Source: Anaerolineae bacterium (GTDB taxonomy: Bacteria; Chloroflexota; Anaerolineae; 4572-78; J111). From it: 64,000 bases of DNA. Positions 5,513 through 27,507 of this stretch are shown here, one piece after another. Under the pieces are notes generated by a model. It was not told where the DNA came from and made no database searches. It was given only the letters and a program-made list of their open reading frames with translations. The DNA lies in NCBI GenBank assembly GCA_023151115.1, contig JAKLJP010000038.1:11395-75394 (forward strand), read 5' to 3'. Every line of letters begins with the position of its first letter. The first letter of the stretch is position 1. A program made the position numbers and the translations under genes.

Positions 5513-6538
5513 ATGAAAACAATTAAATATCACTTGTATCTGACCACGGTTCTGGCTTTGGCTGCTTCGGTTTTGCTGGCGTTGGCTCTGCTGGCCGCCG
5601 CGCCGATCAGCCCGGTTCAAGCCCAGGAAGGCACAGCGGAAGCCACCGAGGAAGCCATGGAAGGTACGGAGGCCCTGACTCCGACCTACAAAATCCTGGC
5701 GGTGGAAAAAACCCTCATCAACGAGCACTGGCAGATTATGCAAAAGGGCTACGAATGGGCCGCCAAGCGCTATAATGTGGCCATAGACGTGGTGTCGGTA
5801 CCGACGGAAGCCGACACGGCGGCACAACTGGATTTGGTTGAGTCCTCGCTGGCCAAAGGTTATGACGCCATCGCCGTCTCGCCCATCTCGCCCAACAACC
5901 TCAATCCGGCTCTGGCCTCGGCCACCGAAATGGGCATTCCCATCGTCAACGTGGATGAACTCATCCCCGAAGATGTGGCTAAAGACGCCGGCATCAACAT
6001 CACCACCCGCATCGCCTCCAACAACTACTATGCCGGGGTGCTGGCGGCTCAGTATATGCTTGACAACCTGCCCGCAGGCTCCCAGGTCGCCGTCATCGAA
6101 GGCATTGCCGGCAACTCCTCCGGCACGGCTCGGCGCGATGGCTTTGTCGAAACCATCGAAGCCAGCGGTGCATTGGAAATCGTGGCCAACCAGGCCGCCG
6201 ATTGGGACCGGGCCAAAGCCAATGCTGTCACCACCAACATCCTGCAAGCCAATCCCGACCTGGCCGGCATCTACTTTGCCAACGACACGATGGCCCTCGG
6301 TGGGGTCGAAGCGGTCGAAGCCGCCGGCTCCGAAGGACTGATCCTCATCGGCACCGACGCCATTCCCGAAGCCACCCAAGCCGTCGCCGATGGCCGCCTC
6401 ACCGGCACCGTCGCCCAGTTCCCACGCGAGATGGCTTTCCTGGCCGTGGAAAACCTGATCAAAATCCTCGAAGGGCGGCCTGTCGCGCCCCGAATTGACG
6501 CGCCGATCAAGTTACTGCTGGCCGCCGACGTTCAATAG
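5513..6538 (+). CDS. Sugar-binding protein of the ABC transporter (AlsB/RbsB-like)
   Basis: Extracytoplasmic periplasmic-binding-protein-like domain (Peripla_BP_4) that captures the sugar. The 341-residue product has a signal segment (about residues 1-36: basic start, long Leu/Ala core, PVQAQ) and then a low-complexity Glu/Ala/Thr linker, as in cell-wall-anchored Chloroflexota binding proteins. The mature part follows E. coli D-allose-binding protein AlsB closely, with shared stretches such as QAADWDRAKA, IYFANDTMA and IGTDAIPEA; this comparison is from memory. The start ATG at 5513 has GGAGG six bases upstream, so a longer upstream frame is rejected. Allose, allulose or another rare hexose is the inferred ligand. 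Confidence 0.92.
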   Translation: MKTIKYHLYLTTVLALAASVLLALALLAAAPISPVQAQEGTAEATEEAMEGTEALTPTYKILAVEKTLINEHWQIMQKGYEWAAKRYNVAIDVVSVPTEADTAAQLDLVESSLAKGYDAIAVSPISPNNLNPALASATEMGIPIVNVDELIPEDVAKDAGINITTRIASNNYYAGVLAAQYMLDNLPAGSQVAVIEGIAGNSSGTARRDGFVETIEASGALEIVANQAADWDRAKANAVTTNILQANPDLAGIYFANDTMALGGVEAVEAAGSEGLILIGTDAIPEATQAVADGRLTGTVAQFPREMAFLAVENLIKILEGRPVAPRIDAPIKLLLAADVQ

Positions 6539-6545
6539 TTCAATA

Positions 6546-6662
6546 TAGTACGTGGTGCGTGGTATTCTAAGCACCACGCGCTATGAGTTCCAGAGTTAAA
6601 TTTGTCAAAACGTGTTGCGTGTTGCGTCTTCCGTTTAGGTTACGCAAGACGCAACACGTATC
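6546..6662. repeat. Two palindromes built from GTGCGTG / GTTGCGT units
   Basis: Two hairpins in the 138-bp gap before the NIPSNAP gene: GTGGTGCGTGG against CCACGCGC (6550-6582) and AACGTGTTGCGTGTTGCGTC against GACGCAACACGT (6609-6655). The arms are made of repeated 7-mers, the architecture seen through the whole window. Confidence 0.6.
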
Positions 6663-6676
6663 TAAACAGGCTAACC

Positions 6677-7003
6677 ATGATTTACGAATTAAGAGTCTAC
6701 GAGGTCTTTCCCGGTAAAATGGAAGCCCTGCACCGCCGCTTTGAGGAAGTCACCGTTCCCTTGTGGCAGCGGCTGGGAGTCACCATCGTGGGCTTTTGGA
6801 ATACGGTGATTGGGCCATCGCACAATCAACTGGTCTACATTCTGGCCTTTGAAAGCCTGGCCCGGCGCGAAGAAATCTGGCAACAATTCAAAAATGATCC
6901 GGCCTGGCTGGCCGCCCTGGCCGAAACGGAAAAAGATGGGCCGCTGGTCAAGCAGATTAGCAATTCATTCATGACGCCCACTACTTATTCACCTCTGCAA
7001 TAA
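6677..7003 (+). CDS. NIPSNAP family protein
   Basis: A 108-residue protein with the ferredoxin-like dimeric alpha/beta barrel fold of the NIPSNAP family; it opens MIYELRVYEVFPGKMEALHRR, the usual family start. Bacterial members are often found in sugar and aromatic catabolic clusters, with no settled reaction. It sits between the sugar-binding protein and the dehydrogenase, 18 bp from the latter, so it is probably co-transcribed and may act on a pathway intermediate. ATG 6677 is chosen because the family starts there; the upstream in-frame extension runs through a palindromic repeat. Confidence 0.85.
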   Translation: MIYELRVYEVFPGKMEALHRRFEEVTVPLWQRLGVTIVGFWNTVIGPSHNQLVYILAFESLARREEIWQQFKNDPAWLAALAETEKDGPLVKQISNSFMTPTTYSPLQ

Positions 7004-7021
7004 AATTTTTAAGGATTTTCA

Positions 7022-7975
7022 ATGGTTCTCTCACGTTATGCGGAATTGGTTGAGCCGGGCAAATTTGTCCTCAAAGAAGAACAGCTTGCCCCTGGCGACG
7101 ACCAGCTTTTGATTCGAATCACCCATTGCGGCATCTGCCAGTACGATGGGGTCTATTACAAGGGTATTATCGGCCAGACGCCCATGAGCCTCGGCCACGA
7201 GCCGGTGGGTGTGGTCGAAGCCGTTGGCCGGAATGTCAAAAACTTCCAGCCCGGCGACCGAGTAACCGGCCTGTTTGCCTATTTGCGCTCCTTTGCCACC
7301 TACGGCCTGGCCGAACCGCACCAATTGATCAAAGTGCCCGACCATGTGCCCTCGGAGCAAGCCCTGGCCGAACCGCTCAAGTGTATTGCCACCATCCTTC
7401 GCGCTGCCCCGCCGGAGTTGGGCGACCACGTGCTGGTGATGGGCAGCGGTTTCATGGGGCTGCTGGTGCTGGCCGGGCTGGTGGGCCGCGCCCCCGCTTC
7501 GCTAATTGCGGTGGATGTGCGCGAAGATCGGCTGGCTTTGGCCAAAGAAATTGGGGCCAGCCACACCCTCAATGCCAAAGACCCGGATTTTCTGGCGAAG
7601 GTCAAAGAAATCACCCAGGGGCACGGCACCGACGTGGTGTTTGAACTGACCAGCAGCGCCGAGCCGGTCGAGCTGGCGGCCAAAACCATGCGCCGTACCC
7701 GCCCGCGCTACGTGCTGGCCGGCTGGCACGGCCAGCCCGGAACCTACACCCTGCGCAACTGGACGACCATGGGCGCGGTCATCCTCTCGGCTCATCCCTC
7801 TTTTTCGCTGGACCAGATGGAAGATGTACGCCGGGCGATGGATGGGTTGGCCCGCGGCGTCTTTCCCATGGATAAGCTCATTACCCATCGTTTTTCGCTG
7901 GACGACATCCAGAAAGGGTTTGAAATTGCCATGAGCGGCGCGGAGGGATACATCAAAGGGGTGATTACCCCCTAA
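7022..7975 (+). CDS. Zinc-dependent MDR alcohol/polyol dehydrogenase
   Basis: A medium-chain dehydrogenase/reductase of 317 residues that would oxidise a sugar alcohol or sugar with NAD(P)+. The GroES-like half has the catalytic zinc site (ITHCGICQYD near residue 35 and LGHEPVG near residue 58). The Rossmann half has a nucleotide-binding loop (VMGSGFMGLLVLA, about residue 140) and an acidic residue after strand two (AVDVRED), favouring NAD+. The four-Cys structural zinc loop is absent and the protein is shorter than the usual 340-350 residues. It lies within the sugar operon, 21 bp before the ROK kinase. Confidence 0.9.
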   Translation: MVLSRYAELVEPGKFVLKEEQLAPGDDQLLIRITHCGICQYDGVYYKGIIGQTPMSLGHEPVGVVEAVGRNVKNFQPGDRVTGLFAYLRSFATYGLAEPHQLIKVPDHVPSEQALAEPLKCIATILRAAPPELGDHVLVMGSGFMGLLVLAGLVGRAPASLIAVDVREDRLALAKEIGASHTLNAKDPDFLAKVKEITQGHGTDVVFELTSSAEPVELAAKTMRRTRPRYVLAGWHGQPGTYTLRNWTTMGAVILSAHPSFSLDQMEDVRRAMDGLARGVFPMDKLITHRFSLDDIQKGFEIAMSGAEGYIKGVITP

Positions 7976-7996
7976 CCGCCTCGACGGAGCAGCACC

Positions 7997-8953
7997 ATGT
8001 CCACATTTGCCGTTGGCATTGATATTGGCGGCACCAAAATTGCCGCCGGGATTATAGACGAGTCAGCCAATATTATTGCTCGTCACGTTTCCAAAACCCA
8101 CGCCGGACGCCCCCCGGCTGAAGTGATTGCTGCCAGCGTTGAAGCCTTTTATACGGTGATGGCTCAAACTGGCTTGCAGCCCGGTGAGGTATCGGGCCTG
8201 GGCGTCGGTTTTGGCGGGCACGTACATGGCGCAGCCGGCCTGATTTTGACCAGCAGCAACCTTCCGGCTTGGGATAATTACCCTCTGCGTGACCACTTGC
8301 AGGAACAGCTTGGGGTTCGGGTTATTCTGGAAAACGACTCCAACTGCGCCGCCTGGGGCGAATATCGTTTCGGCGCAGGCCAGGGGTCGGATAACATGGC
8401 CTATGTCACCTTTAGCACCGGCTATGGCCTGGGAGTAGTCATTGGCGGCAAACTCTACCGGGGCGCAACCGGCACGGCGGGCGAACTGGCTCATACCGTC
8501 GTTCACCTCGACGGCCCTTATTGTACCTGCGGCAAACGCGGCTGCCTGATGGCTTACGCCTCCGGCCTGGGGATTTCGCGCATGGTCCGCGAGCGGCTGG
8601 AAGTCGGCGAGGAAACCCTTTTGCGCCAGCTCTGCGGCCCGCACCCGGAACGGGTGGCCGGCGAAACCGTCGCCGCAGCCGCCCAGCAGGGCGACCGGGT
8701 GGCGCGGGGAGTGCTGGCCCTAGCCGGTCGCTACTTTGGGGTGGGCCTGTCGTCGGTGGTGCAGATGTTCAACCCCGACCGAATTGTGATTGGCGGCGGG
8801 CTGGCCCACATCGAGGAATGGCTGATGAAACCCTGTTTTGCCGCGCTCTACGAAAATATTCATCCCGTGCTGGCTAATTCGGCCCAACTCGTTTACTCCA
8901 CCCTCTGGGAAGACGCCGGGCTGATCGGCGCGGCCTCGCTGGTTTGGGAATGA
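7997..8953 (+). CDS. ROK family sugar kinase
   Basis: A 318-residue ROK protein (ATP-dependent sugar kinase family that includes AlsK, NagK and glucokinase). It shows the phosphate-1 motif GIDIGGTKIAAG at residues 7-18, the catalytic stretch ENDSNCAAWGE (Asp near residue 114), a glycine-rich FSTGYGLGVV loop, and the ROK zinc motif CTCGKRGC with an upstream His. No DNA-binding domain is present, so it is an enzyme rather than an NagC-type repressor. A GGAG lies ten bases upstream of the ATG. In the allose pathway AlsK phosphorylates the hexose; the same job is likely here, though the substrate is not shown by sequence. Confidence 0.9.
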   Translation: MSTFAVGIDIGGTKIAAGIIDESANIIARHVSKTHAGRPPAEVIAASVEAFYTVMAQTGLQPGEVSGLGVGFGGHVHGAAGLILTSSNLPAWDNYPLRDHLQEQLGVRVILENDSNCAAWGEYRFGAGQGSDNMAYVTFSTGYGLGVVIGGKLYRGATGTAGELAHTVVHLDGPYCTCGKRGCLMAYASGLGISRMVRERLEVGEETLLRQLCGPHPERVAGETVAAAAQQGDRVARGVLALAGRYFGVGLSSVVQMFNPDRIVIGGGLAHIEEWLMKPCFAALYENIHPVLANSAQLVYSTLWEDAGLIGAASLVWE

Positions 8954-17860: not shown

Positions 17861-18142
17861 GTGTCACCAAGCAAACTTACCTCTAAACATCGTAATACCC
17901 TCCAAGCTATTTTTGAAAATCCAGTCCGAGCTAATATCCTGTGGTCAGACATTGAAAAATTATTGGCGGCTTGTGGAGCACAGGTTAGTGAAGGGAGAGG
18001 GTCAAGGGTACGTCTTGAGTTAAATGATGTGCGAGCCGTTTTTCATCGCCCGCATCCGCGCAAAGAAACGGATCGAGGGGCAGTCATGTCAATGCGTCGT
18101 TTTCTGATAGAAGCAGGAGTAACACCTCATGATGGAATATAA
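17861..18142 (+). CDS. hicA: HicA-family toxin
   Basis: A 93-residue protein of the HicA type: a small dsRBD-like fold mRNA interferase (GRGSRVRLELNDVRAVFHRPHP, then RRFLIEAGV at the C-terminus). The catalytic His usually found at the second strand (GSHH) is replaced by Arg in the GRGSR motif; this variant subfamily instead keeps HRPHP, so catalysis is unproven. GTG start at 17861 with a poor Shine-Dalgarno, consistent with low expression. The end overlaps the start of the HicB-like gene by 14 bases, the normal toxin-first order of hicAB modules. Confidence 0.82.
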   Translation: MSPSKLTSKHRNTLQAIFENPVRANILWSDIEKLLAACGAQVSEGRGSRVRLELNDVRAVFHRPHPRKETDRGAVMSMRRFLIEAGVTPHDGI

Positions 18143-18449
18143 AGGATATCTAGGGCGTGTGGAATTTGATGATGAAGCCAACCTATTTCACGGTGAAGTC
18201 ATTAATATTCGTGATGTTATTACTTTTCAAGGCAAATCAGTTGACGAATTGCACCAGGCATTAAAGGACTCAATTGAAGATTATTTGGAATTTTGTGCAG
18301 AACGAGGGGAACAGCCGGAAAAGCCGTTTTCGGGGCGATTTACGGTACAGCTATCACCGGAAGAGCATCGCCGGGTTATTTTTGCCGCTGAAAGAGCGGG
18401 CAAAAGGTTAGATCATTGGGTGGCTGATGTACTTGGACACGCTGCGTAA
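18129..18449 (+). CDS. hicB: HicB-family antitoxin
   Basis: A 106-residue HicB-like protein: a partially degraded RNase H fold at the N-terminus (MEYKGYLGRVEFDDEANLFHGEV..) and a C-terminal ribbon-helix-helix/HicB DNA-binding segment (GRFTVQLSPEEHRRVIFAAERAG). It would neutralise the HicA partner and autoregulate the pair. ATG at 18129, with a second ATG directly after it, overlaps the toxin stop. A strong terminator follows at 18496-18522. Confidence 0.88.
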   Translation: MMEYKGYLGRVEFDDEANLFHGEVINIRDVITFQGKSVDELHQALKDSIEDYLEFCAERGEQPEKPFSGRFTVQLSPEEHRRVIFAAERAGKRLDHWVADVLGHAA

Positions 18450-18583: not shown

Positions 18584-18865
18584 ATGAACATTCCTTTCAG
18601 TTCCGACAGTGTTAAAACAGAGGCGGATATTAAAGCCTTTTTTGTGTGGCTCGTGACTGACCAATATCTCAATTTTCATCCTGATACACCCTTCGAGGAT
18701 TACGTGTATTACGGCACTAATGACCACGTATATTCAAATGAGACAGCAGCTTTGTTAAATGCTATTATGGACAGGTGTTTTGAAATCAAAGAGGATATAT
18801 ATGAGATTGGGCTGGAGGTATTTAAGGAGTATGTATATCCCGAAATGGGAACATATTATGACTAA
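18584..18865 (+). CDS. Conserved hypothetical protein
   Basis: A 93-residue acidic, aromatic-rich protein with no signal peptide or membrane segment. Its layout (FFVWLVTDQYLNFHPDTPF.EDYV at residues 19-43, then a helix ending CFEIKEDIYEIGLEVF) resembles small conserved hypotheticals often found next to mobile or defence genes, but I cannot assign a function. ATG at 18584 has GAGG nine bases upstream and a good promoter. It ends 23 bp from the stop of the opposing receiver gene. Confidence 0.7.
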   Translation: MNIPFSSDSVKTEADIKAFFVWLVTDQYLNFHPDTPFEDYVYYGTNDHVYSNETAALLNAIMDRCFEIKEDIYEIGLEVFKEYVYPEMGTYYD

Positions 18866-18888: not shown

Positions 18889-20043
18889 TTATGTCGCCGC
18901 TTCAAAGTCTGGCATCCCTATTCGCCCTGCGTGACTTACAAAATGATGCAATAAATCAGCCCTGTAAGGTTCATCCAAACGTTGTTCACGCTCTAGAACG
19001 ACCTGTGTTCCATTCAAAGTTTGATAAGAGTGTTTATAGATCATTGTCAGTTTCTTGGGAGCGGCCTCAATTAAGCTCAAATTTTTTACAACCAGAATCT
19101 CATGAAAACAAACTTCTAGCCCTACCTTTTGATCATCATCCCATTCTAAAGTCCATCTGTCATCTTTACGAGTTTTATCTGTCTTTTGATGAATCAGGGC
19201 CAATCGTAAGAAAGTTGTCTTGCTAGGTTGAGCCAGATCACAGGCTGGAGTGATAACTACGGCTTGAATTTGTTCTGTTTGGGCCTCAGTCCCTAAAGTT
19301 ATCTTGACTATATCACCTGTCCGCACAAAGTTGTCCTTTGGCCTGTAGTACATATGTAGCCTTTTTATGCGAGATTCAATTTTTTTGGCTTTATCCGGCG
19401 CACGTTCCAATTTTTGAACAGTCTGTCGCACCTCAGCAATAAATGTTTCATCCTCATTGATTGCCCTTCCTACCAAACGTAGTAACACATCAACAGCATG
19501 TTCCATATCAACTTCACTGCTATCGCCCGCAGCAATAAGTGTTTTCAACCCCCTGGCCAGGTCGTCCTCTGAATGTTCAGCCAATCTGTAAAGCGCTTTC
19601 TCGGCTGAAACAGCAAGGCTCTGACGGAACTGATTACTCAGTTTAGCCGGGGTAGTTTCATACCACTTATTGAGGAAGTCAAGTAAATCTTTGCCCGTAA
19701 CCTTTGCTTTACTTCTTGCTGTCAAACAGGCGGAAGGGAAAAATTGTTTCACCTCATCTGCTTCATCTTCATATCTCTCCAACTGTTCAGTCCAGATTAC
19801 TACGGGCACAAAATATTTTGCCCGAATGGTATGCAAACATAATTTAGCCAAAATAGAATTCTGTCCATCCAATAACCAATCAAGAACAATCATCTGAAAA
19901 TCAAATGGGTGTTCAAGATATTTTTCTAAGTCAGCCTGTCCACTCGCTTCTATAACGTTAACCCCTTGCGCCTTAAATTCTTCTACCACCTGACTACGAA
20001 CACTGGCGACATCTTCAATAAACAAAACGCTGGAGAGTTTCAT
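18889..20043 (-). CDS. Receiver-domain protein with unknown C-terminal domain (last gene of the five-gene operon)
   Basis: A 384-residue protein. Residues 4-125 form a receiver domain: acidic pair E10-D11, phosphoacceptor Asp55 in MIVLDWLLDG, and a WTEQ switch region. A helical stretch (130-240) follows, then a C-terminal beta-rich domain (about 255-380) with the segment AVVITPACDLAQ, which I do not recognise as a DNA-binding output domain. ATG 20043 is preceded by GAGG seven bases upstream; a longer frame to 20103 overlaps the upstream gene and is rejected. It follows the GHKL kinase gene by 25 bp and is its likely phosphotransfer partner. It lacks a canonical HTH, so it probably acts on a protein, perhaps the nuclease or translocase of the same operon (inference). 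Confidence 0.8.
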   Translation of the reverse strand: MKLSSVLFIEDVASVRSQVVEEFKAQGVNVIEASGQADLEKYLEHPFDFQMIVLDWLLDGQNSILAKLCLHTIRAKYFVPVVIWTEQLERYEDEADEVKQFFPSACLTARSKAKVTGKDLLDFLNKWYETTPAKLSNQFRQSLAVSAEKALYRLAEHSEDDLARGLKTLIAAGDSSEVDMEHAVDVLLRLVGRAINEDETFIAEVRQTVQKLERAPDKAKKIESRIKRLHMYYRPKDNFVRTGDIVKITLGTEAQTEQIQAVVITPACDLAQPSKTTFLRLALIHQKTDKTRKDDRWTLEWDDDQKVGLEVCFHEILVVKNLSLIEAAPKKLTMIYKHSYQTLNGTQVVLEREQRLDEPYRADLLHHFVSHAGRIGMPDFEAAT

Positions 20044-20068
20044 GTGCTTACCTCTGAGAAAGTGATGT

Positions 20069-22279
20069 TCAATTTGAGAACTGAATTTTGAAAGCAGCGC
20101 CAATTCTGAATGTGGCCGGATGACTGCCCGGCTCTAATAACTCAATTGTGGCTTTGGCCTCGGAAAGGGTTTCCCGACTGATAAACAGACCGAGTCCACG
20201 GCCATCGGTTTTGGTTGAAAAAAATATATCAAAAATGCGATGACGGATGTTGGGTTGTACTCCCGGCCCATTATCAGCTACAATTACACTTCGCTCGCTG
20301 GCTAAAATAGTAACCCTTAAACGGCGATCATTTTCCTGTGATTTGCGACTGAGCCAATAGCAGGCATTATCAATCAGGTTATTAAAAACCTGAGTCAATG
20401 CTCCCTCACGCATAATCACAATTAGTTCGCCCTGTTCGTCAATCTCCGTCTGAATTTTGTTATCCTTAATTTGTCCCTGGTTAAGCAGCAAGGCATGGCT
20501 TATAATAGTTTTGACGTTCAACTCTTTTTCACGAGTTTTATGACGTACATAAAACATTGGCCCCAGAGCTAATACCAAATCCTGTAAAGCTTCTAAAGTT
20601 ACTCGCAGCGTATTGATCCGATTAGTAGCCTCCGATGAGGCTTGAATTTGAGGGAGGCGTTTTACTTCTCGAAGCAAATCTGATGCCTCCCTAGTGAGGC
20701 GAGCGAATTCATGGGTAAAGCGTTCAGCCGCCAGCCCCAAGCCCGCCAAAGCCAATAACATTTCACGTTCTTCATTAAAGGTGGTCAAAGTGTCAGTTGT
20801 GGCCTCTTTAGTTTCAATCACTGCCGTTTCAAGAATCTGGCTGGTTTGATTGAAAGTAGCCAGCATTTGAGAGGCTACTTCGGGAGTGATTTTCCCCTGT
20901 TCCACAAAATCCCTGGTTATTTTCCGTGTCTCATCCAATGCCTGGGTTACTGAATTGACACTGGTTTCCAGATGGGTTACAGTAGGGGTTAGCTCTTTTT
21001 TGGCTGCTTTTTCCCCTTCTCTAATCTTTTTGCGATCTTCAGAAAATTCATTAAAGGCAATATTCATCACCGCTCGCATCAATTCATATAGGTCGGTGAA
21101 AGCTTGGTTTTCAATGAATCCCTCCCGGTTACTTTTGTCGCGCAAATCCTTATTGCTAATCTGATCGATTTCAACAGCCCCAATCACATTCTTACGTTCA
21201 AATGCCTCCGAAGTACGCATATATCGTGCCTGATCGGTGTGGAGCCAATCATCATCCAACTCACCATAGGGCATTACCCGAATTCCATCCCGAAATACTG
21301 AAACACCATACACCTGATTCAAGTCAGCCAGATTTGTGCCAGATAATTTGATACTATCAGGACTTCTATCCCAAATATAAAGTGTAACAAAAAACTCACC
21401 GCAGGCAGACTTTCGCTCAACAGGTCGCCAATTTTTTATCTTTCTTCGCAAATCCACTCCCTGTAACCCTACTTGGCGAGAGGGGTAGGGTGGCAAGGTA
21501 AATTTATAATCATAATCAGCCACACCGTTTTCATCAACTGCCACAGTCATTTGAGCATGGGCACTTTGGAGCAATTCACCCGGATTTAGATCTTCATATT
21601 TTTCATAATCGGGACATTTTAAGATAACTGTAAATGATGCAGGGGTGCGAATCGGACTCATTAGCCGCCGTAATGCCCGAGAAACACGTGCTATATCCAT
21701 TTCCTTCCAAGAAGTTCGGGCATGACGCATTTCCATCAGTGTACCACTACCTTTGATAAAGTGTTGGGGTTCACGTTCTTCGTAATCTACACCCACTTCA
21801 CTCAGGTAAGTATCCGCCTCAAACTTATCCCAATCAACCCTGACCACGACCTCTCTATCACTCAGATTACCCTTCTCGTCTCGCGCCCGACTGATCAGGG
21901 TTAAATGACGACCTAATTTATGCGCAGCAAAACGCCCCACGCCCTTTTCTCCCAACGGTAAACGTCCTTTAGAGGAACGTTGCGCTTTCTCTTTAGCTGC
22001 TTCTTTGTGTCCGGTAGCGGGTTCTAACCATTTATAAAGTATGGTATCCAAATCCATCCCATTACCATCATCCTCAACAATGATCATCGTCTCAACAGGA
22101 TTAGCCAGATTAAGTAATTTTACTGTTACTGTATTAGCATCAGCATCGTAACCATTTTTAACCAACTCAAGCAAGCCAACTGTAGCATCTCGAATTAACT
22201 GTTCACCCAAGACACTAACCAAGCGGGCACGAGGACGAAAAGTTTCAGTACCTTTGCGGAATATAGTAGAATTTGCCAT
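20069..22279 (-). CDS. Histidine kinase with an additional N-terminal GHKL (Hsp90/MORC-like) ATPase domain
   Basis: A 736-residue protein with two separate GHKL ATPase modules. The N-terminal one (about 10-230) has the N-box ELVKNGYDADA (E38, N42), the EDDGNGM loop (69-75) and the ATP lid GEKGVGRFAAH (110-120). The segment around 320-395 (GVSVFRDGIRVMPYGE..DKSNREGF) resembles the transducer region of MORC/paraMORC ATPases. A coiled coil (420-560) carries a dimerisation helix with His523 (RFTHEF), a plausible phosphoacceptor. The C-terminal catalytic domain (610-736) has NLIDNACYW, DNGPGV and GRGLGL. Start ATG 22279 has AAGGA upstream; 22 bp follow the HerA stop. Related GHKL proteins are reported from restriction-modification neighbourhoods. 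Here the N-terminal ATPase probably senses DNA or protein state and the C-terminal kinase signals to the receiver. Confidence 0.85.
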   Translation of the reverse strand: MANSTIFRKGTETFRPRARLVSVLGEQLIRDATVGLLELVKNGYDADANTVTVKLLNLANPVETMIIVEDDGNGMDLDTILYKWLEPATGHKEAAKEKAQRSSKGRLPLGEKGVGRFAAHKLGRHLTLISRARDEKGNLSDREVVVRVDWDKFEADTYLSEVGVDYEEREPQHFIKGSGTLMEMRHARTSWKEMDIARVSRALRRLMSPIRTPASFTVILKCPDYEKYEDLNPGELLQSAHAQMTVAVDENGVADYDYKFTLPPYPSRQVGLQGVDLRRKIKNWRPVERKSACGEFFVTLYIWDRSPDSIKLSGTNLADLNQVYGVSVFRDGIRVMPYGELDDDWLHTDQARYMRTSEAFERKNVIGAVEIDQISNKDLRDKSNREGFIENQAFTDLYELMRAVMNIAFNEFSEDRKKIREGEKAAKKELTPTVTHLETSVNSVTQALDETRKITRDFVEQGKITPEVASQMLATFNQTSQILETAVIETKEATTDTLTTFNEEREMLLALAGLGLAAERFTHEFARLTREASDLLREVKRLPQIQASSEATNRINTLRVTLEALQDLVLALGPMFYVRHKTREKELNVKTIISHALLLNQGQIKDNKIQTEIDEQGELIVIMREGALTQVFNNLIDNACYWLSRKSQENDRRLRVTILASERSVIVADNGPGVQPNIRHRIFDIFFSTKTDGRGLGLFISRETLSEAKATIELLEPGSHPATFRIGAAFKIQFSN

Positions 22280-22301
22280 CAGTTTTCCTTAACTCAAAGG
22301 T

Positions 22302-23936
22302 CTAATCGGTGTATTCACGATTGGTGCTACACGGACGCATATCACATAGAACCGGATGGGCAAATTGAGGGCTAATGATAAGGGCCTGACCTTGCCCTAA
22401 GAGTGGCACTTCACCCCAAACGGCCTCATTGATGTTACCTGCTGAAACCTGTAAAGCATCCAAATTCCGTTTCCCTGTTGTCTGGTGTATGACTTTGGTG
22501 TTGCACAATTCAAATATTTCATTAGGCAAGTGGGCAGGCTGTTGAGAAATAAAGCAAAGACCAAGCCAACGCTTACGTCCCCGTCGGCTGATGGCACGCA
22601 GCATATCCACGATATTTTCCATTGCTTTTACATTTTCTCGGCTTACAAAAGTGTGGGCTTCTTCAATTACTACCAGAGTTGGAGGCGCATTAAGTTCATC
22701 AATCTTTTTTTGAAAGATTTCTCGGAGTATTTGAGCAATAATAATATTGTTTACCCGCACATTGTTTGCATCACTCAAGTCAAATATGGAAAGCTGTCCT
22801 GGTTTAAGCAAATCATCAGCATTAAAAATATAATCAACAGAATCGAAGACCTGATATCGTTTTAGCTTGACGAGTAATTGAAGCACTTTGTTCCAAGAAG
22901 CTTTATTACCAAAACCAGCCTCTTGCTTTCCAATATCTATCCGGTCTATTAAATACTGTAAGGTAAGGTTAGGTAAACTATTTAATCCAATAGGGCTGTC
23001 AGAACTGGCAAAGCGATCCCATTTGCTCTGTCTCTGCTGAGGATTCTGTCTGGTTGTAAGTTCTGTGACAGCATCTTCATATAATTCTAGAAAACGGATC
23101 TCTTGAGGTTCACTCATGCCCATAATTTCAATTAAATCATAAGGAGATAGATTTCCAAAGCGTAAACAAAATTCACGAGCATCAAGACACCTGGACTCTG
23201 TACCCGGGCAATGAAAAACCTGTACATTTTCAATACCTCTTGGAGAAACGCCAAACTTCTGCATAGCGGCTGCAAGCGGCTTTTTCTTGGCTTCGCCATT
23301 GGGTTTATCCATTGAGATATATTCACCTTCAACATCTAGCACCACTACTGCCCAACCACTAGCTATAGCTTCCTCAATAAGGACCTGGGCGGTGTTGGTT
23401 TTACCCGAACCAACCGTACCAAAAACACCCACATTACGAGGTAAAACCTTTTTAACGTGAGCGTTAAAGTAAACCCTAATTTGCTCATAGCCGGTCAGAT
23501 GTCCCAGATACATATTTCCCTCAAGTCCAAGTAATTGGGCAATCTGATCAGGCGGCATGGGTAGGACAGGTGTTTTTGGGAAAGGGCGACTGGCGAAACC
23601 AAAAAGATGGTAGTCATCTAAACTGACACGCCCTAACAGTTCTACTCGACAAACTCCATGAAAATCAGGGAGAAATGGGACTTCATTGGCTAACAAAATT
23701 GAAGTGCGAGCAAAAGCAGAGTCTTTACTAACTGCGTCAGGGGTATAGAATGGTCCTGAAATGACCCGCCCTAAATAAGGTCGCTCCACACCTATACTAC
23801 CAATTAATACATATTGACCTCGTTGTATTCGCTTAATTTCATCAAAAGGAATACGCAGTTCGATTTCGTTGTTCTGCCCTCGAATATCATCAAAATTTAC
23901 AAAGCCAAGTGGAGACAAAGGGTTTTGGTCAGTCAT
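22302..23936 (-). CDS. herA: HerA-like ATP-dependent DNA translocase
   Basis: A 544-residue FtsK/HerA-superfamily ATPase (DUF87 type), expected to form a hexamer that pumps double-stranded DNA. An N-terminal HAS-barrel-like segment (about 15-130) precedes the motor: Walker A GTVGSGKTN (173-181), Walker B LVVIEEAH (421-428), the arginine-rich SRRGRKRW stretch (450-457) and sensor SQQP (464-467). The ATG at 23936 is chosen because AGGAG lies eight bases upstream; a TTG two codons earlier is too close. It follows the NurA gene by 15 bp. HerA-NurA pairs resect DNA ends in archaea, and bacterial HerA proteins team with nucleases or NADases in several antiphage systems. Confidence 0.92.
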   Translation of the reverse strand: MTDQNPLSPLGFVNFDDIRGQNNEIELRIPFDEIKRIQRGQYVLIGSIGVERPYLGRVISGPFYTPDAVSKDSAFARTSILLANEVPFLPDFHGVCRVELLGRVSLDDYHLFGFASRPFPKTPVLPMPPDQIAQLLGLEGNMYLGHLTGYEQIRVYFNAHVKKVLPRNVGVFGTVGSGKTNTAQVLIEEAIASGWAVVVLDVEGEYISMDKPNGEAKKKPLAAAMQKFGVSPRGIENVQVFHCPGTESRCLDAREFCLRFGNLSPYDLIEIMGMSEPQEIRFLELYEDAVTELTTRQNPQQRQSKWDRFASSDSPIGLNSLPNLTLQYLIDRIDIGKQEAGFGNKASWNKVLQLLVKLKRYQVFDSVDYIFNADDLLKPGQLSIFDLSDANNVRVNNIIIAQILREIFQKKIDELNAPPTLVVIEEAHTFVSRENVKAMENIVDMLRAISRRGRKRWLGLCFISQQPAHLPNEIFELCNTKVIHQTTGKRNLDALQVSAGNINEAVWGEVPLLGQGQALIISPQFAHPVLCDMRPCSTNREYTD

Positions 23937-23951
23937 TTTCAAATCTCCTGA

Positions 23952-25058
23952 TTATTTCAGCCGCATCTCACGTTCATCGGTTTCAGTTAGAAACTGGCCT
24001 TCCCGTGCTAATTGATAATTCATTAGACGGATAAAATCACCAGCGGGAAAGTGTTCGGTGCAAAGTGTATCGGCATAATCAATAAGCAAAGGAAATCCCT
24101 TTTCCCGTTGTAACAAAGAGTCACGGGCAATAATGGCAGCGGCAAGATCAAATGTATCACGATGAGCATGAAACATGTAAGGCCGTTGACCAATTTTGAT
24201 AACACCTGTAAGAATACGCGACGCTTTCTTACGCAAAAATTCTTCCATATGTTCAAATTCACGAGGTCGCCACTTACCTGGAGCCATAAAATTCTCATCT
24301 TCAGCCAATTCATCTCCCAGAGAAAATTTTTCATCCACCATATATTCACCAGACTTTAAAGCTGTTCCAAGAGTTATATAATCATTGTAACGCGAGGTAG
24401 AAATGATGCTAAATATTTTGGGGTCGGCAATTAGTTTTTTTAAAATATCCAGAGTGGTATAAAGCGCCCTCAACCTACCCAGTCCCGTCATCAGTTCAAA
24501 GGGTAGTAATGGCCCGTGTAACAATTTGTAATTGCTCTTATATTCAGAGCGTATAGCCACTTCACGTTCCCGATATAGCATTAAAGCCCGAATGACAAGC
24601 GCCGAGACAGGCTGATTTTTTGGTTCACGCCGTTTTAATACTTCGAGAACATCCTCGGTGTCATTCCGCAAATTTGCCTCAGAAATGTAGTATGAGTGAC
24701 GTATTTTCTCATTAAGGTAATTAACGGCTACTACACCAATTTGACAGCGAATACCCGAAAGCATTTGATGTCTAGCAACTGTCCCATCAATACCAATAAC
24801 TTGTCCATTAAATAATAGCTTTTCAGCAGTTGCCAGATTTGAGTCATAATTTCTTAATGTATAACCACGCTCTAAAACTTCTGTGCGCAATGCTTCACGA
24901 ATACGCTTTTCACGGGTAATATCCTCCCGCATTTCTTTTTCATAATGGGCCGGAGCTTCAGTAATGAATTGGCTGTAGTTGTGCCACTGTTTTTGGGCTA
25001 ATAAATCTTTAAACGTAACACTATTCTCATCAGAAGATTTACTCATTGTCAATTTCAT
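23952..25058 (-). CDS. nurA: NurA-domain nuclease
   Basis: A 368-residue NurA-family protein. NurA nucleases cut single-stranded DNA and degrade DNA 5'-3' with Mn2+, usually bound to HerA. Visible hallmarks are the first metal Asp in VIGIDGT (Asp91), the HGPLLPFE segment (about residue 180) and a C-terminal block ARDSLLQREKGFPLLIDYAD containing the conserved acidic and basic residues. The N-terminus is a charged helix. The start used overlaps the 3' end of the methylase fusion by 20 bases; an in-frame ATG at 25046 leaves an eight-base overlap and is equally possible. Either way translation is coupled. It is larger than some archaeal NurA proteins. Confidence 0.8.
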   Translation of the reverse strand: MKLTMSKSSDENSVTFKDLLAQKQWHNYSQFITEAPAHYEKEMREDITREKRIREALRTEVLERGYTLRNYDSNLATAEKLLFNGQVIGIDGTVARHQMLSGIRCQIGVVAVNYLNEKIRHSYYISEANLRNDTEDVLEVLKRREPKNQPVSALVIRALMLYREREVAIRSEYKSNYKLLHGPLLPFELMTGLGRLRALYTTLDILKKLIADPKIFSIISTSRYNDYITLGTALKSGEYMVDEKFSLGDELAEDENFMAPGKWRPREFEHMEEFLRKKASRILTGVIKIGQRPYMFHAHRDTFDLAAAIIARDSLLQREKGFPLLIDYADTLCTEHFPAGDFIRLMNYQLAREGQFLTETDEREMRLK

Positions 25059-27267
25059 TTTCTTGCGCTTTTATGGCTTCCACCAGTACCTCGCCTATTG
25101 CTTGCGCCATTATAGGGGGTACAGCATTACCAATTTGAATAAACTGCGCCCCACGGCTTCCACAAAAAATATAGTCATCCGGGAAAGACTGAATCCGGGC
25201 CGCTTCACGAACAGAGAGTGACCGAATCTGGCGGTCTGGATCAGGATGAACAAAGCTATTGCCATCTTTGTGCAAATGGGAAACTATCGTTTTAGATTGA
25301 CCTTCCCACTGCAAACGGTAATATTTATCGTGAAAGTTTTTGACTTCATAGTTCTTAAAAAATTGCTTTGTCATCCCTATCCGACTAACTAAGTCCTGGT
25401 AAGTTTCCCCTTCTTTTAATTCAGAATAGAGCCTAACATCATCCTCATTGTTAAAACGACTAACATGATTGAACAATATATGGGTATTTCCTCTGATTTG
25501 AAACCGCTCAAGATATCGTTGATCCCATTCAATATTTCTCCCAATACCATTCGAGTGAGCTGCTACCCATTGACCATCAGATACAGACAATCGGGGCAGA
25601 TCATATAGGGCATGCTTTAAAGTCGTCATTTGCCCTTCTTGAATATTTTGCTTAAATTTCTCTAAATTTGGTATTGGTTCTCCCTGTCGAGTGCCAAAAA
25701 TGAAGAAACGGTGACGATTTTGGGGGATATAAAAATTAACCGCCTCTAACAGGCATACTTTAACCTGATACCCTAACCTCTCAAGACTTTCAGCAATATG
25801 GTCGGCATAAGTTTTTTCTTTTTTAATACTGGCGCTACCTAAACCCGGCACATTTTCAATAACTACATACCGGGGCTTTAACTCTCTGGCAACTCTAAGC
25901 ATTGCTTTGAAAAGGTGATTTCGTTTATCCTCAGTAAACCTGTAATCAGACCCAAAACTTTTATCACCATTCTCATACTTGTGGGGTACACGATTGCCCA
26001 TCATGGAGTAGCCTTGACACGGCGGGCCACCCACTAGCAAATCTAATTCCTGACCCTTGAGTAAATTGCGTAATTGCTTTAACTTGACCCGACGCGCATC
26101 ACTCTGAATTTCATCTTCAATAATGGCTTCATCGGGTATCTCTGGATGATTTAACCGATAAGTACGAATAGCATCAGGATTGTTATCAATGGCGGCAACT
26201 ATTTTGAAACCAGCCCGACTCAAACCAAGAGAAAAACCACCCGCCCCACAAAACATATCAATGGCCAGGCTTTTTTTTTCCTCCGTATGGGCTGCTTGAG
26301 CTTTTGTTCGATAATAAGCACAAAATTTTTTGAGTTCGCACCGATCACATTCGGGAGTTTGTTTGCATATTTCTTTTCCTAAAACAACCAGATTACGATG
26401 CAAATCATTGCGTATATGAGGAGGCATCAGCAAAAGGGGTAATTCTTCTTGTGCCTTTTTGTGATCTTCTTGCCGCCAAGCAAATCCGAAATTTTTAAAG
26501 ATACCCAAGCGATCCAGCACACGGAGACAATGTGTATCGGCTGGAAAAATATCCATACCGCGAACATACATTAAAATACATGCAGCCGTTTTCTTGCCTA
26601 CACCTGGCAGTTTTTGTAGAAATTGATCCAATTGCCAGTCCGACATATTGGCAAAATCAGCCTCATCAATGCGACCAAACTCTTGACAGATGAGTCGAAG
26701 AGACCCCTGAATAAACTGCACCTTGTGGTCTTCCAGCCCACCCCCCATAATTATTGATTTCAATTCATCAGGAGGAGTCAAAGCAACCTCTTCCCAGGTG
26801 GCGTACTTTTTCTTGATGGCCCGTAATTGTTTTTCAGCGTCTTCAATTTTGGAACGACGAGTCAACAGAATATAAACCAATTCATCAATAAGGTTTTGTT
26901 GATTGCCTAACTCAGGCGAACCAAATTGTACCTTTAAAATCTCGTTGATAATACGAAGGGGGACCAGTATTTCTTTAATCAATCGTTCCCGCAATACTTC
27001 GGTTTTAATTGGTTGAGAATCAGCCGCCTGGGAAGAAGCTTCATTTCCTACTTTGTAAGTAGCTGGACGCTCCTTGATGACTGCGAGGCTAGAAGGCGAA
27101 GATAACTCAGGGGAAATATCGGATTGGCATTTTTGTAAAAAAGCTACAACTTCCTCGCGCCACTGCATCTCGGCTGAGGTCAAAACAGGAGGACGGCGGG
27201 GAAAAATCTCTGGGCCGTGGCTGGTTGGGTGATACTTCTTGGGTTCAGTGTCTTTGACTTTAGGCAT
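25039..27267 (-). CDS. Fusion of HhH-GPD DNA glycosylase/endonuclease III domain and C5-cytosine DNA methyltransferase
   Basis: A 742-residue two-enzyme protein and first gene of the operon. Residues 95-320 are endonuclease III-like: hairpin LPGVGKKTA (220-228) with the catalytic Lys, PADTH (242-246) with catalytic Asp244, and an iron-sulphur cluster C301-x5-C307-x2-C310-x5-C316. Residues 334-742 form a complete Dcm-type methylase: motif I MFCGAGGFSLG, motif IV GGPPCQGYS with nucleophile Cys417, motif VI ENVPG, motif VIII QNRHR and motif X GNAVPP. Residues 1-90 are polar and probably disordered. The MTase makes 5-methylcytosine; the glycosylase may repair T:G or excise a modified base. Free-standing glycosylases next to C5-MTases are known (MIG with M.MthTI). 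ATG 27267 has GAGG 11 bases upstream and a promoter at 27305-27333. Confidence 0.93.
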   Translation of the reverse strand: MPKVKDTEPKKYHPTSHGPEIFPRRPPVLTSAEMQWREEVVAFLQKCQSDISPELSSPSSLAVIKERPATYKVGNEASSQAADSQPIKTEVLRERLIKEILVPLRIINEILKVQFGSPELGNQQNLIDELVYILLTRRSKIEDAEKQLRAIKKKYATWEEVALTPPDELKSIIMGGGLEDHKVQFIQGSLRLICQEFGRIDEADFANMSDWQLDQFLQKLPGVGKKTAACILMYVRGMDIFPADTHCLRVLDRLGIFKNFGFAWRQEDHKKAQEELPLLLMPPHIRNDLHRNLVVLGKEICKQTPECDRCELKKFCAYYRTKAQAAHTEEKKSLAIDMFCGAGGFSLGLSRAGFKIVAAIDNNPDAIRTYRLNHPEIPDEAIIEDEIQSDARRVKLKQLRNLLKGQELDLLVGGPPCQGYSMMGNRVPHKYENGDKSFGSDYRFTEDKRNHLFKAMLRVARELKPRYVVIENVPGLGSASIKKEKTYADHIAESLERLGYQVKVCLLEAVNFYIPQNRHRFFIFGTRQGEPIPNLEKFKQNIQEGQMTTLKHALYDLPRLSVSDGQWVAAHSNGIGRNIEWDQRYLERFQIRGNTHILFNHVSRFNNEDDVRLYSELKEGETYQDLVSRIGMTKQFFKNYEVKNFHDKYYRLQWEGQSKTIVSHLHKDGNSFVHPDPDRQIRSLSVREAARIQSFPDDYIFCGSRGAQFIQIGNAVPPIMAQAIGEVLVEAIKAQENEIDNE

Positions 27268-27304
27268 TGAGCAGTACACCTCAAGGTTTATCGAAGTGTC
27301 TTAT

Positions 27305-27333
27305 ATTCTATCACACTTGTTCGGATGGCTCAA
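27305..27333 (-). promoter_or_regulatory. Promoter of the methylase-NurA-HerA-GHKL-receiver operon
   Basis: Minus strand -35 TTGAGC (27328-27333), 17-base spacer, -10 TAGAAT (27305-27310); predicted start about 30 bases before the ATG. It is the only good promoter seen for the five genes. Confidence 0.6.
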
Positions 27334-27400: not shown

Positions 27401-27507
27401 CAACATTCGGGCAATGTCGAATCAACATTCGGGGCATGTGGAAGCGATTTGCCTGCAAAAAGGAAGCAACATGCGACGCATGTTGATGGAACATGCGTCG
27501 CATGTTG
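27401..27507. repeat. Array of four related 19-bp palindromes upstream of the defence operon
   Basis: Copies at 27401-27419, 27423-27441, 27467-27485 and 27489-27507. The last two are near-perfect palindromes (CAACATGCG-A-CGCATGTTG and GAACATGCG-T-CGCATGTTG); the first two are degenerate (CAACATTCG...). They lie 68-174 bp upstream of the operon's -35 and could be regulator binding sites, recognition sites of the encoded methylase, or another repeat family. Confidence 0.55.

Follow-up and report, generated by a model that had tools for sequence, protein, structure and literature searches.

HerA and NurA are known as an end-processing pair of archaea and Deinococcus, and Sir2-HerA is an example of a HerA-based defence. 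Coupling of a HerA ring to a nuclease against phages has been described for DUF4297-HerA (PMC11291478), MORC-type GHKL proteins have been known from restriction-modification (R-M) operons since 2008 (Iyer 2008, PMC2292703), and a computational analysis of 644 regions has associated a kinase with a receiver, a C5-cytosine DNA methyltransferase (C5-MTase) and Vsr (Bellieny-Rabelo 2021, PMC8011034), in a paper whose main text makes no mention of HerA or NurA. We here present an operon from a 64,000-nucleotide stretch of an Anaerolineae bacterium genome (contig JAKLJP010000038.1, positions 11,395 to 75,394; the whole stretch is called the window below), in which five minus-strand genes encode, in this order, a glycosylase-methylase fusion, a NurA-like nuclease, a HerA-like ATPase, a histidine kinase and a receiver protein. 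On the sequence comparisons presented here, we put at roughly 0.6 the probability that the operon is a horizontally acquired R-M-like defence system with HerA-NurA as its effector. A preliminary description had presented the five genes, including a kinase with two GHKL domains, as a candidate new defence system; the gene set is confirmed with intact motifs and that title was right in substance, while the role given to the glycosylase and the account of what was already described for the sensor module are corrected below.

The proposed effector is encoded by the second and third genes. The NurA-like nuclease (368 aa; 23952..25058, minus strand, as for all operon coordinates here) has the Asp91 of a GIDGT motif and a His299, both invariant across 34 aligned sequences, and its fold is supported by structural alignment, at 10-15% identity to solved NurAs. 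Its gene adjoins that of the HerA-type ATPase (546 aa; 22302..23942), in which Walker A (GTVGSGKTNT) and Walker B (VVIEEAH) are both intact. The preceding gene (25039..27279) encodes the fusion protein (746 aa, or 742 aa from a second start), which joins an N-terminal endonuclease III (EndoIII)-like helix-hairpin-helix (HhH) glycosylase to a C-terminal C5-MTase. Downstream follow the kinase (736 aa; 20069..22279), with an N-terminal MORC-like GHKL ATPase, an HEF-type H box and a C-terminal kinase ATPase, and the receiver (18889..20103), with an N-terminal REC and a C-terminal domain.

This arrangement is found elsewhere. When a species-genome collection was scanned with the NurA alignment, 14 loci were confirmed among 23 pattern matches: nine are uncut from the MTase to the kinase gene, three (L006, L011 and L014) are cut by contig ends, and two come from Thermoprotei (L012 and L013), in whose NurA stretches no methylase was found. 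The order MTase-NurA-HerA-kinase is kept in all nine uncut MTase-type loci and the receiver comes next in seven of them, so the set named in the preliminary description does co-occur in kept order, and in unrelated genomes. Both receiver-less loci, L002 and L003, are archaeal, and three receiver profiles found nothing in them even at an E-value of 10. A separate glycosylase gene lies between the MTase and NurA genes in L001, and one lies there in L003 too, on the opposite strand. Operon relatives occur in Bacteroidota, Ignavibacteria, Woesearchaeota and Thaumarchaeota, mostly in metagenome-assembled genomes (MAGs), Hydrotalea flava being a strain, and protein relatives are found also in Thermincola, Nitrosotenuis and others. 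The NurA family is rare, patchy and cross-domain: whole-genome draws of 149, 345, 398, 371, 294 and 294 contained 1, 1, 3, 1, 2 and 3 matching genomes, respectively, and seven of the ten distinct ones were already in the species-collection scan. The loci of the three new genomes (G885, G1273 and G1555; L036, L037 and L038) do not show the full operon, L036 and L038 being short contigs. Searches of viral contigs and plasmids gave no NurA relative, a search of plasmids with the L005 receiver gave no relative either, and a search of phages with HerA gave a single match, weak and partial. Across six loci, conservation is highest in HerA and NurA (mean distances 18.7 and 21.1) and lowest in the MTase and the receiver (42.5 and 55.2).

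In the fusion protein, the glycosylase domain (residues ~113-325; 26305..26943) has the catalytic Lys and Asp and four Cys of the 4Fe-4S type, and the C5-MTase domain (residues ~338-742; 25054..26268) has the PPCQ, ENV and QxRxR motifs. Among 52 aligned proteins with the EndoIII-like domain, including that of the window, the Lys and the Asp are each present in 50 and the four Cys in all, and EndoIII-MTase fusions are common among homologues of similar length. Companions of the methylase were sought by Pfam scans of neighbours and with small profiles on six-frame translations. Each of ten loci (the nine uncut ones and the window) has one companion type: Vsr in L002, L004, L005, L007 and L009, a decayed Vsr in L010, a Mig-like enzyme in L001, L003 and L008, and, in the window, the EndoIII-like domain of the fusion protein. 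Two types together were found in none of the locus stretches examined; in the three truncated loci, a companion was seen in L014 (Vsr) and none in L006 or L011. In Mig-type G:T mismatch glycosylases the HhH motif has a Tyr where EndoIII has its Lys, and the stand-alone glycosylases of L001, L003 and L008 indeed have Tyr at this position and find their best PDB match in 1kea, a G-T mismatch enzyme (1.4e-33, 3e-37 and 5.4e-33, respectively). Across nine relative genomes, five of the six Vsr genes over the cut-off lie at the operon locus, for which length alone would predict 0.03; for HhH-GPD genes in relative genomes the figure is 3 of 28, with 0.16 expected. Vsr repairs mispairs arising from deaminated 5-methylcytosine (5mC) (PMC8011034). 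Because relatives carry Vsr or a Mig-like enzyme instead of the fused domain, and never both, the window glycosylase is probably no weapon and likely repairs deaminated 5mC (T:G mispairs) as the methylase's mutation-avoidance companion. Just before the MTase gene of L010 (positions 7901-8720) lie the decayed vsr remnant and what looks, by eye, like the start of an XRE-like regulator. EndoIII-C5-MTase-like fusions were also seen on haloarchaeal plasmids (L025, L026 and L027), with large helicase genes nearby in L026 and L027; no HerA-NurA is named near them in the annotation, which is incomplete.

The window kinase has the architecture HATPase_c_3, HEF H box, HATPase_c, with both ATPase domains over the cut-off. 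Its N-terminal GHKL ATPase spans residues 36-137 (21869..22174), and its H box (RFTHEF, His523; ~20711-20713) lies upstream of the C-terminal ATPase (residues 626-718; 20126..20404). In an alignment of ten kinases, the N-terminal GHKL motifs and the His of the HEF box are intact in all ten. The C-terminal ATPase behaves differently: the Asp of its G1 box, a residue that contacts adenine in this ATPase superfamily, is present in all eight receiver-bearing loci and has given way to Asn in the two that lack a receiver; in the L003 kinase, the N-box Asp and the second glycine of the G1 box are lost as well. Since the kinase half has decayed where the receiver is absent, the two proteins presumably act on each other, and since the N-terminal GHKL domain has stayed intact in the same proteins, it would have a job of its own; the pattern implies that this domain is part of the operon core and that the kinase is coupled to the receiver. 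The HEF_HK profile (PF19191) scores 15.5 bits on the window kinase, below the cut-off of 24.1, and it has the operon kinase as its top match in nine of 11 relative genomes and over the cut-off in three (G004, G006 and G007); judged by these sequence relationships, the window kinase belongs with the HEF_HK kinases. Response_reg_2 (PF19192) did not match the window receiver and had no match over the cut-off in any of seven relative genomes, in four of which the operon receiver was its best match below it.

The receiver, which is linked to a C5-MTase, has the REC active-site residues D31, D75, T105 and K132, and among the matches listed in a search of solved structures with its profile, the N-terminal REC part was aligned in 60 of 65. 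Its C-terminal domain carries the motifs TPACDL and PYRADLL...SHAGRIG, and domain scans recognised no DNA-binding domain there. Over six loci from Bacteroidota and Ignavibacteria, MTase distances rise with receiver distances (r 0.70, exact Mantel p 0.04), and HerA distances do not (r -0.01). Co-evolution of receiver and MTase is nevertheless not claimed, because two relatives of the window operon run contrary to the correlation, with 97% for the methylase part and 57% for the receiver in one and 68% and 82% in the other (the pairing being deduced). Dual-GHKL kinases were seen in other settings. The plasmid loci L022 and L023 combine one with a partner bearing an ACD motif (by eye), Vsr and a C5-MTase, no HerA-NurA being named in the annotated stretch, and beside one in Devosia (L024:10281-12188) lies a protein in which, by eye, receiver-like and NPQCDL motifs resemble those of the window receiver. 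These partner proteins in L022-L024 gave no match to the receiver profiles, and the likeness is one of short motifs seen by eye.

NurA-HerA pairs of this family were found with other partners as well. In the Thermoprotei MAGs (L012 and L013), a distant pair has as neighbours a PIWI-domain protein of ~400 aa and CRISPR genes (Cas1; Cmr/Cas10), HerA being on the opposite strand in L013. In L037 (7016-13198), from the family of G005 (Hydrotalea), the pair lies downstream of two genes, one with an M78-peptidase domain and one with a partial N4/N6-MTase match (28.6 bits against a cut-off of 26.7), and a Pycsar effector gene is near. In L036 the gene after the pair encodes a protein of 431 aa whose sole GHKL domain is of the N-terminal type, in line with that domain having its own job. 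L003, from a Thaumarchaeota genome, has a second, distant HerA-like ATPase upstream of the operon (5572-7374), as detected with the PADLOC mad8/HerA profiles, and an HNH_2 nuclease follows the receiver in L007, L009 and L010.

The operon has a GC content of 0.38-0.47, against 0.53-0.63 outside it, and is likely mobile. Next to it, where the low-GC stretch borders on its surroundings, is a HicA/HicB toxin-antitoxin pair (HicA PF07927, HicB PF05534; plus strand, 17861-18449), and an unassigned 93-aa open reading frame (18584-18865) lies in between. At the 5' side, the promoter named in the preliminary description (27305..27333, minus strand) is indeed a sigma-70-like match, albeit a weak one, with 9 of 12 consensus positions and at about the number expected by chance; an 18-bp inverted repeat with a five-base loop and a T-rich tail (27467-27507) is terminator-like on the minus strand. 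Residence in a defence island, raised in the same description, is suggested by a few neighbours, namely HicAB in the window, AbiV in L003 and PDC-M62A in L007, and is not established. PADLOC-DB 2.0, applied as profiles and not as system rules, matched in the window HerA (also as mad8 and DndH), the methylase (MTase_II/DrmMII/DruM) and the GHKL part (REase_II); none matched NurA, and none matched the receiver below 0.01. Matches were obtained for three of seven flanking proteins, PDC-M62A being the clearest.

We infer restriction as well as self-marking, the target, the T:G activity, the signal and the direction of control. The C5-MTase would use 5mC to mark self DNA, the EndoIII-like domain fused to it would repair T:G mispairs from deaminated 5mC, which would be the job of Vsr or the Mig-like enzyme in relatives, and HerA, as a translocating ring, would form with the nuclease NurA a restriction effector attacking unmarked DNA. 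The kinase's N-terminal GHKL ATPase may be a MORC/MutL-like clamp within this core, and the C-terminal kinase and the receiver a phospho-switch setting when the effector is active. Of the model in the preliminary description, self-marking with attack by HerA-NurA is retained, an R-M-like system being the best reading, and the glycosylase is more likely a repair companion than a part of the attack; phosphotransfer may, as suggested there, license HerA-NurA, and the decay of the G1 box supports the coupling of kinase and receiver. Several observations weigh against the R-M-like reading. The window glycosylase matches EndoIII of D. radiodurans (8.3e-21) above Mig (6.2e-11) among PDB structures and keeps the EndoIII Lys in place of the Mig-type Tyr, for which reasons its T:G activity is suggested by context. 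MutY structures come next after 1kea for the glycosylases of L001, L003 and L008 (1.6e-30, 1.1e-33 and 2.8e-24), and closely so for the first two. The L001 methylase has SPEC in place of PPCQ, which bears on site recognition by the effector. The two receiver-less loci are related, their NurAs being 62% identical, and may represent one event, and four of the seven flanking proteins have no PADLOC match, with few clear defence neighbours.

Other explanations of the same genes have to be weighed. The operon could serve DNA-end repair or stress, with HerA-NurA resecting breaks, the kinase sensing damage and the methylase providing an epigenetic tag. This would fit HerA-NurA as an end-processing pair, for which solved complexes exist, and a two-component system would suit stress sensing; the rare, patchy, low-GC and cross-domain distribution, the constant cytosine methylase with a T:G companion, as suits R-M, and the PIWI and CRISPR genes beside relatives make it improbable. 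It is still less probable that the glycosylase acts as a weapon or an eraser, excising bases at the methylase site and leaving HerA-NurA to finish the DNA from the abasic site. The domain retains its catalytic Lys and Asp and weakly matches ROS1 (2.5e-6), a 5mC glycosylase with the PDB name DNA glycosylase/AP lyase. Restriction glycosylases do exist (PMC10273834), but relatives with the same core carry Vsr, a repairer of deaminated 5mC (PMC8011034), or Mig-like enzymes. That the operon is a selfish addiction module without defence function, kept in the population through self-restriction upon loss of the methylase, is rather unlikely: it is patchy and low in GC like a mobile element and has the HicAB pair next door, but its size and phospho-switch exceed what addiction needs, and addiction does not exclude defence. 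The kinase-receiver pair could, as a possibility we find doubtful yet worth keeping in mind, control expression of the operon with a timing like that of C proteins, without acting directly on HerA-NurA. R-M systems often have a timing control, and the XRE-like reading frame of L010 would be in keeping with it; the receiver's C-terminal part, with no recognised DNA-binding domain, and the kinase's N-terminal part, a GHKL ATPase and no usual sensor, speak against it, neither decisively.

Tentatively, the R-M-like reading can be extended. A MORC-like GHKL clamp may keep HerA-NurA restriction in check and a phosphorelay may switch it, bacteria having kept kinase and receiver and archaea having lost both and retained the clamp alone. 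The same NurA-HerA cassette may also combine with more than one kind of marker or guide, namely 5mC methylases accompanied by Vsr, a Mig-like enzyme or an EndoIII domain, a PIWI protein and perhaps a methylase of the N4/N6 type, so that specificity would sit in the partner. If true, a two-component phospho-switch would be built into a restriction system, HerA-NurA would be a modular restriction effector, experimental access would be gained to the role of HEF_HK/Response_reg_2-type pairs, and Vsr, Mig-like and EndoIII-type enzymes would be interchangeable guards of the methylated sites of one system.

How, then, does the operon compare with known systems? With the HerA-NurA end-processing complex it shares the NurA fold and an adjacent HerA with intact Walker motifs, but here the pair is in an operon with a methylase and a kinase. 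In TdpAB (PDB 8wfd) the modification is phosphorothioate, not 5mC, and we know of no kinase or receiver in that system. Mig.Mth (PDB 1kea), which is encoded beside a methylase, is the best match of the stand-alone glycosylases of relatives, whereas the window domain is of the EndoIII type, with Lys, and fused. In DUF4297-HerA the effector is not NurA, and the abstract names no methylase or two-component part (PMC11291478). MORC/paraMORC (PMC2292703) and mza-like systems (PMC9523054) share with the operon a GHKL/MORC ATPase and a cytosine methylase in R-M operons, often with Vsr or other repair endonucleases, but as described there they mostly have SF2 helicases and RE-fold nucleases, in contrast to HerA-NurA, the kinase half and the receiver here. 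Among the domains of predicted defence systems, a figure legend in PMC13092281 names HATPase and REC, and a relative of the operon may be one of those systems. The combination of HerA-NurA, a HEF_HK-type kinase and a methylase was not found among the listed titles and abstract beginnings of an open-licence library, from which its absence cannot be proven. The preliminary description recognised no named system in the set; PADLOC profiles do match single proteins only, but kinase, receiver and C5-MTase, also with Vsr, were already in print. With this HEF_HK/Response_reg_2 R-M module (PMC8011034) the operon shares, as far as described, a kinase of HATPase_c_3, HEF H box and HATPase_c with an adjacent receiver, a C5-MTase, Vsr and sometimes HNH_2; it differs in the HerA-NurA effector, in its occurrence in archaea, in a companion that can take the form of a Mig-like enzyme or of an EndoIII domain fused to the methylase, and in a window kinase and receiver that fall below the Pfam cut-offs. 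The sensor module was thus already known, and HerA-NurA as its effector is probably the new part.

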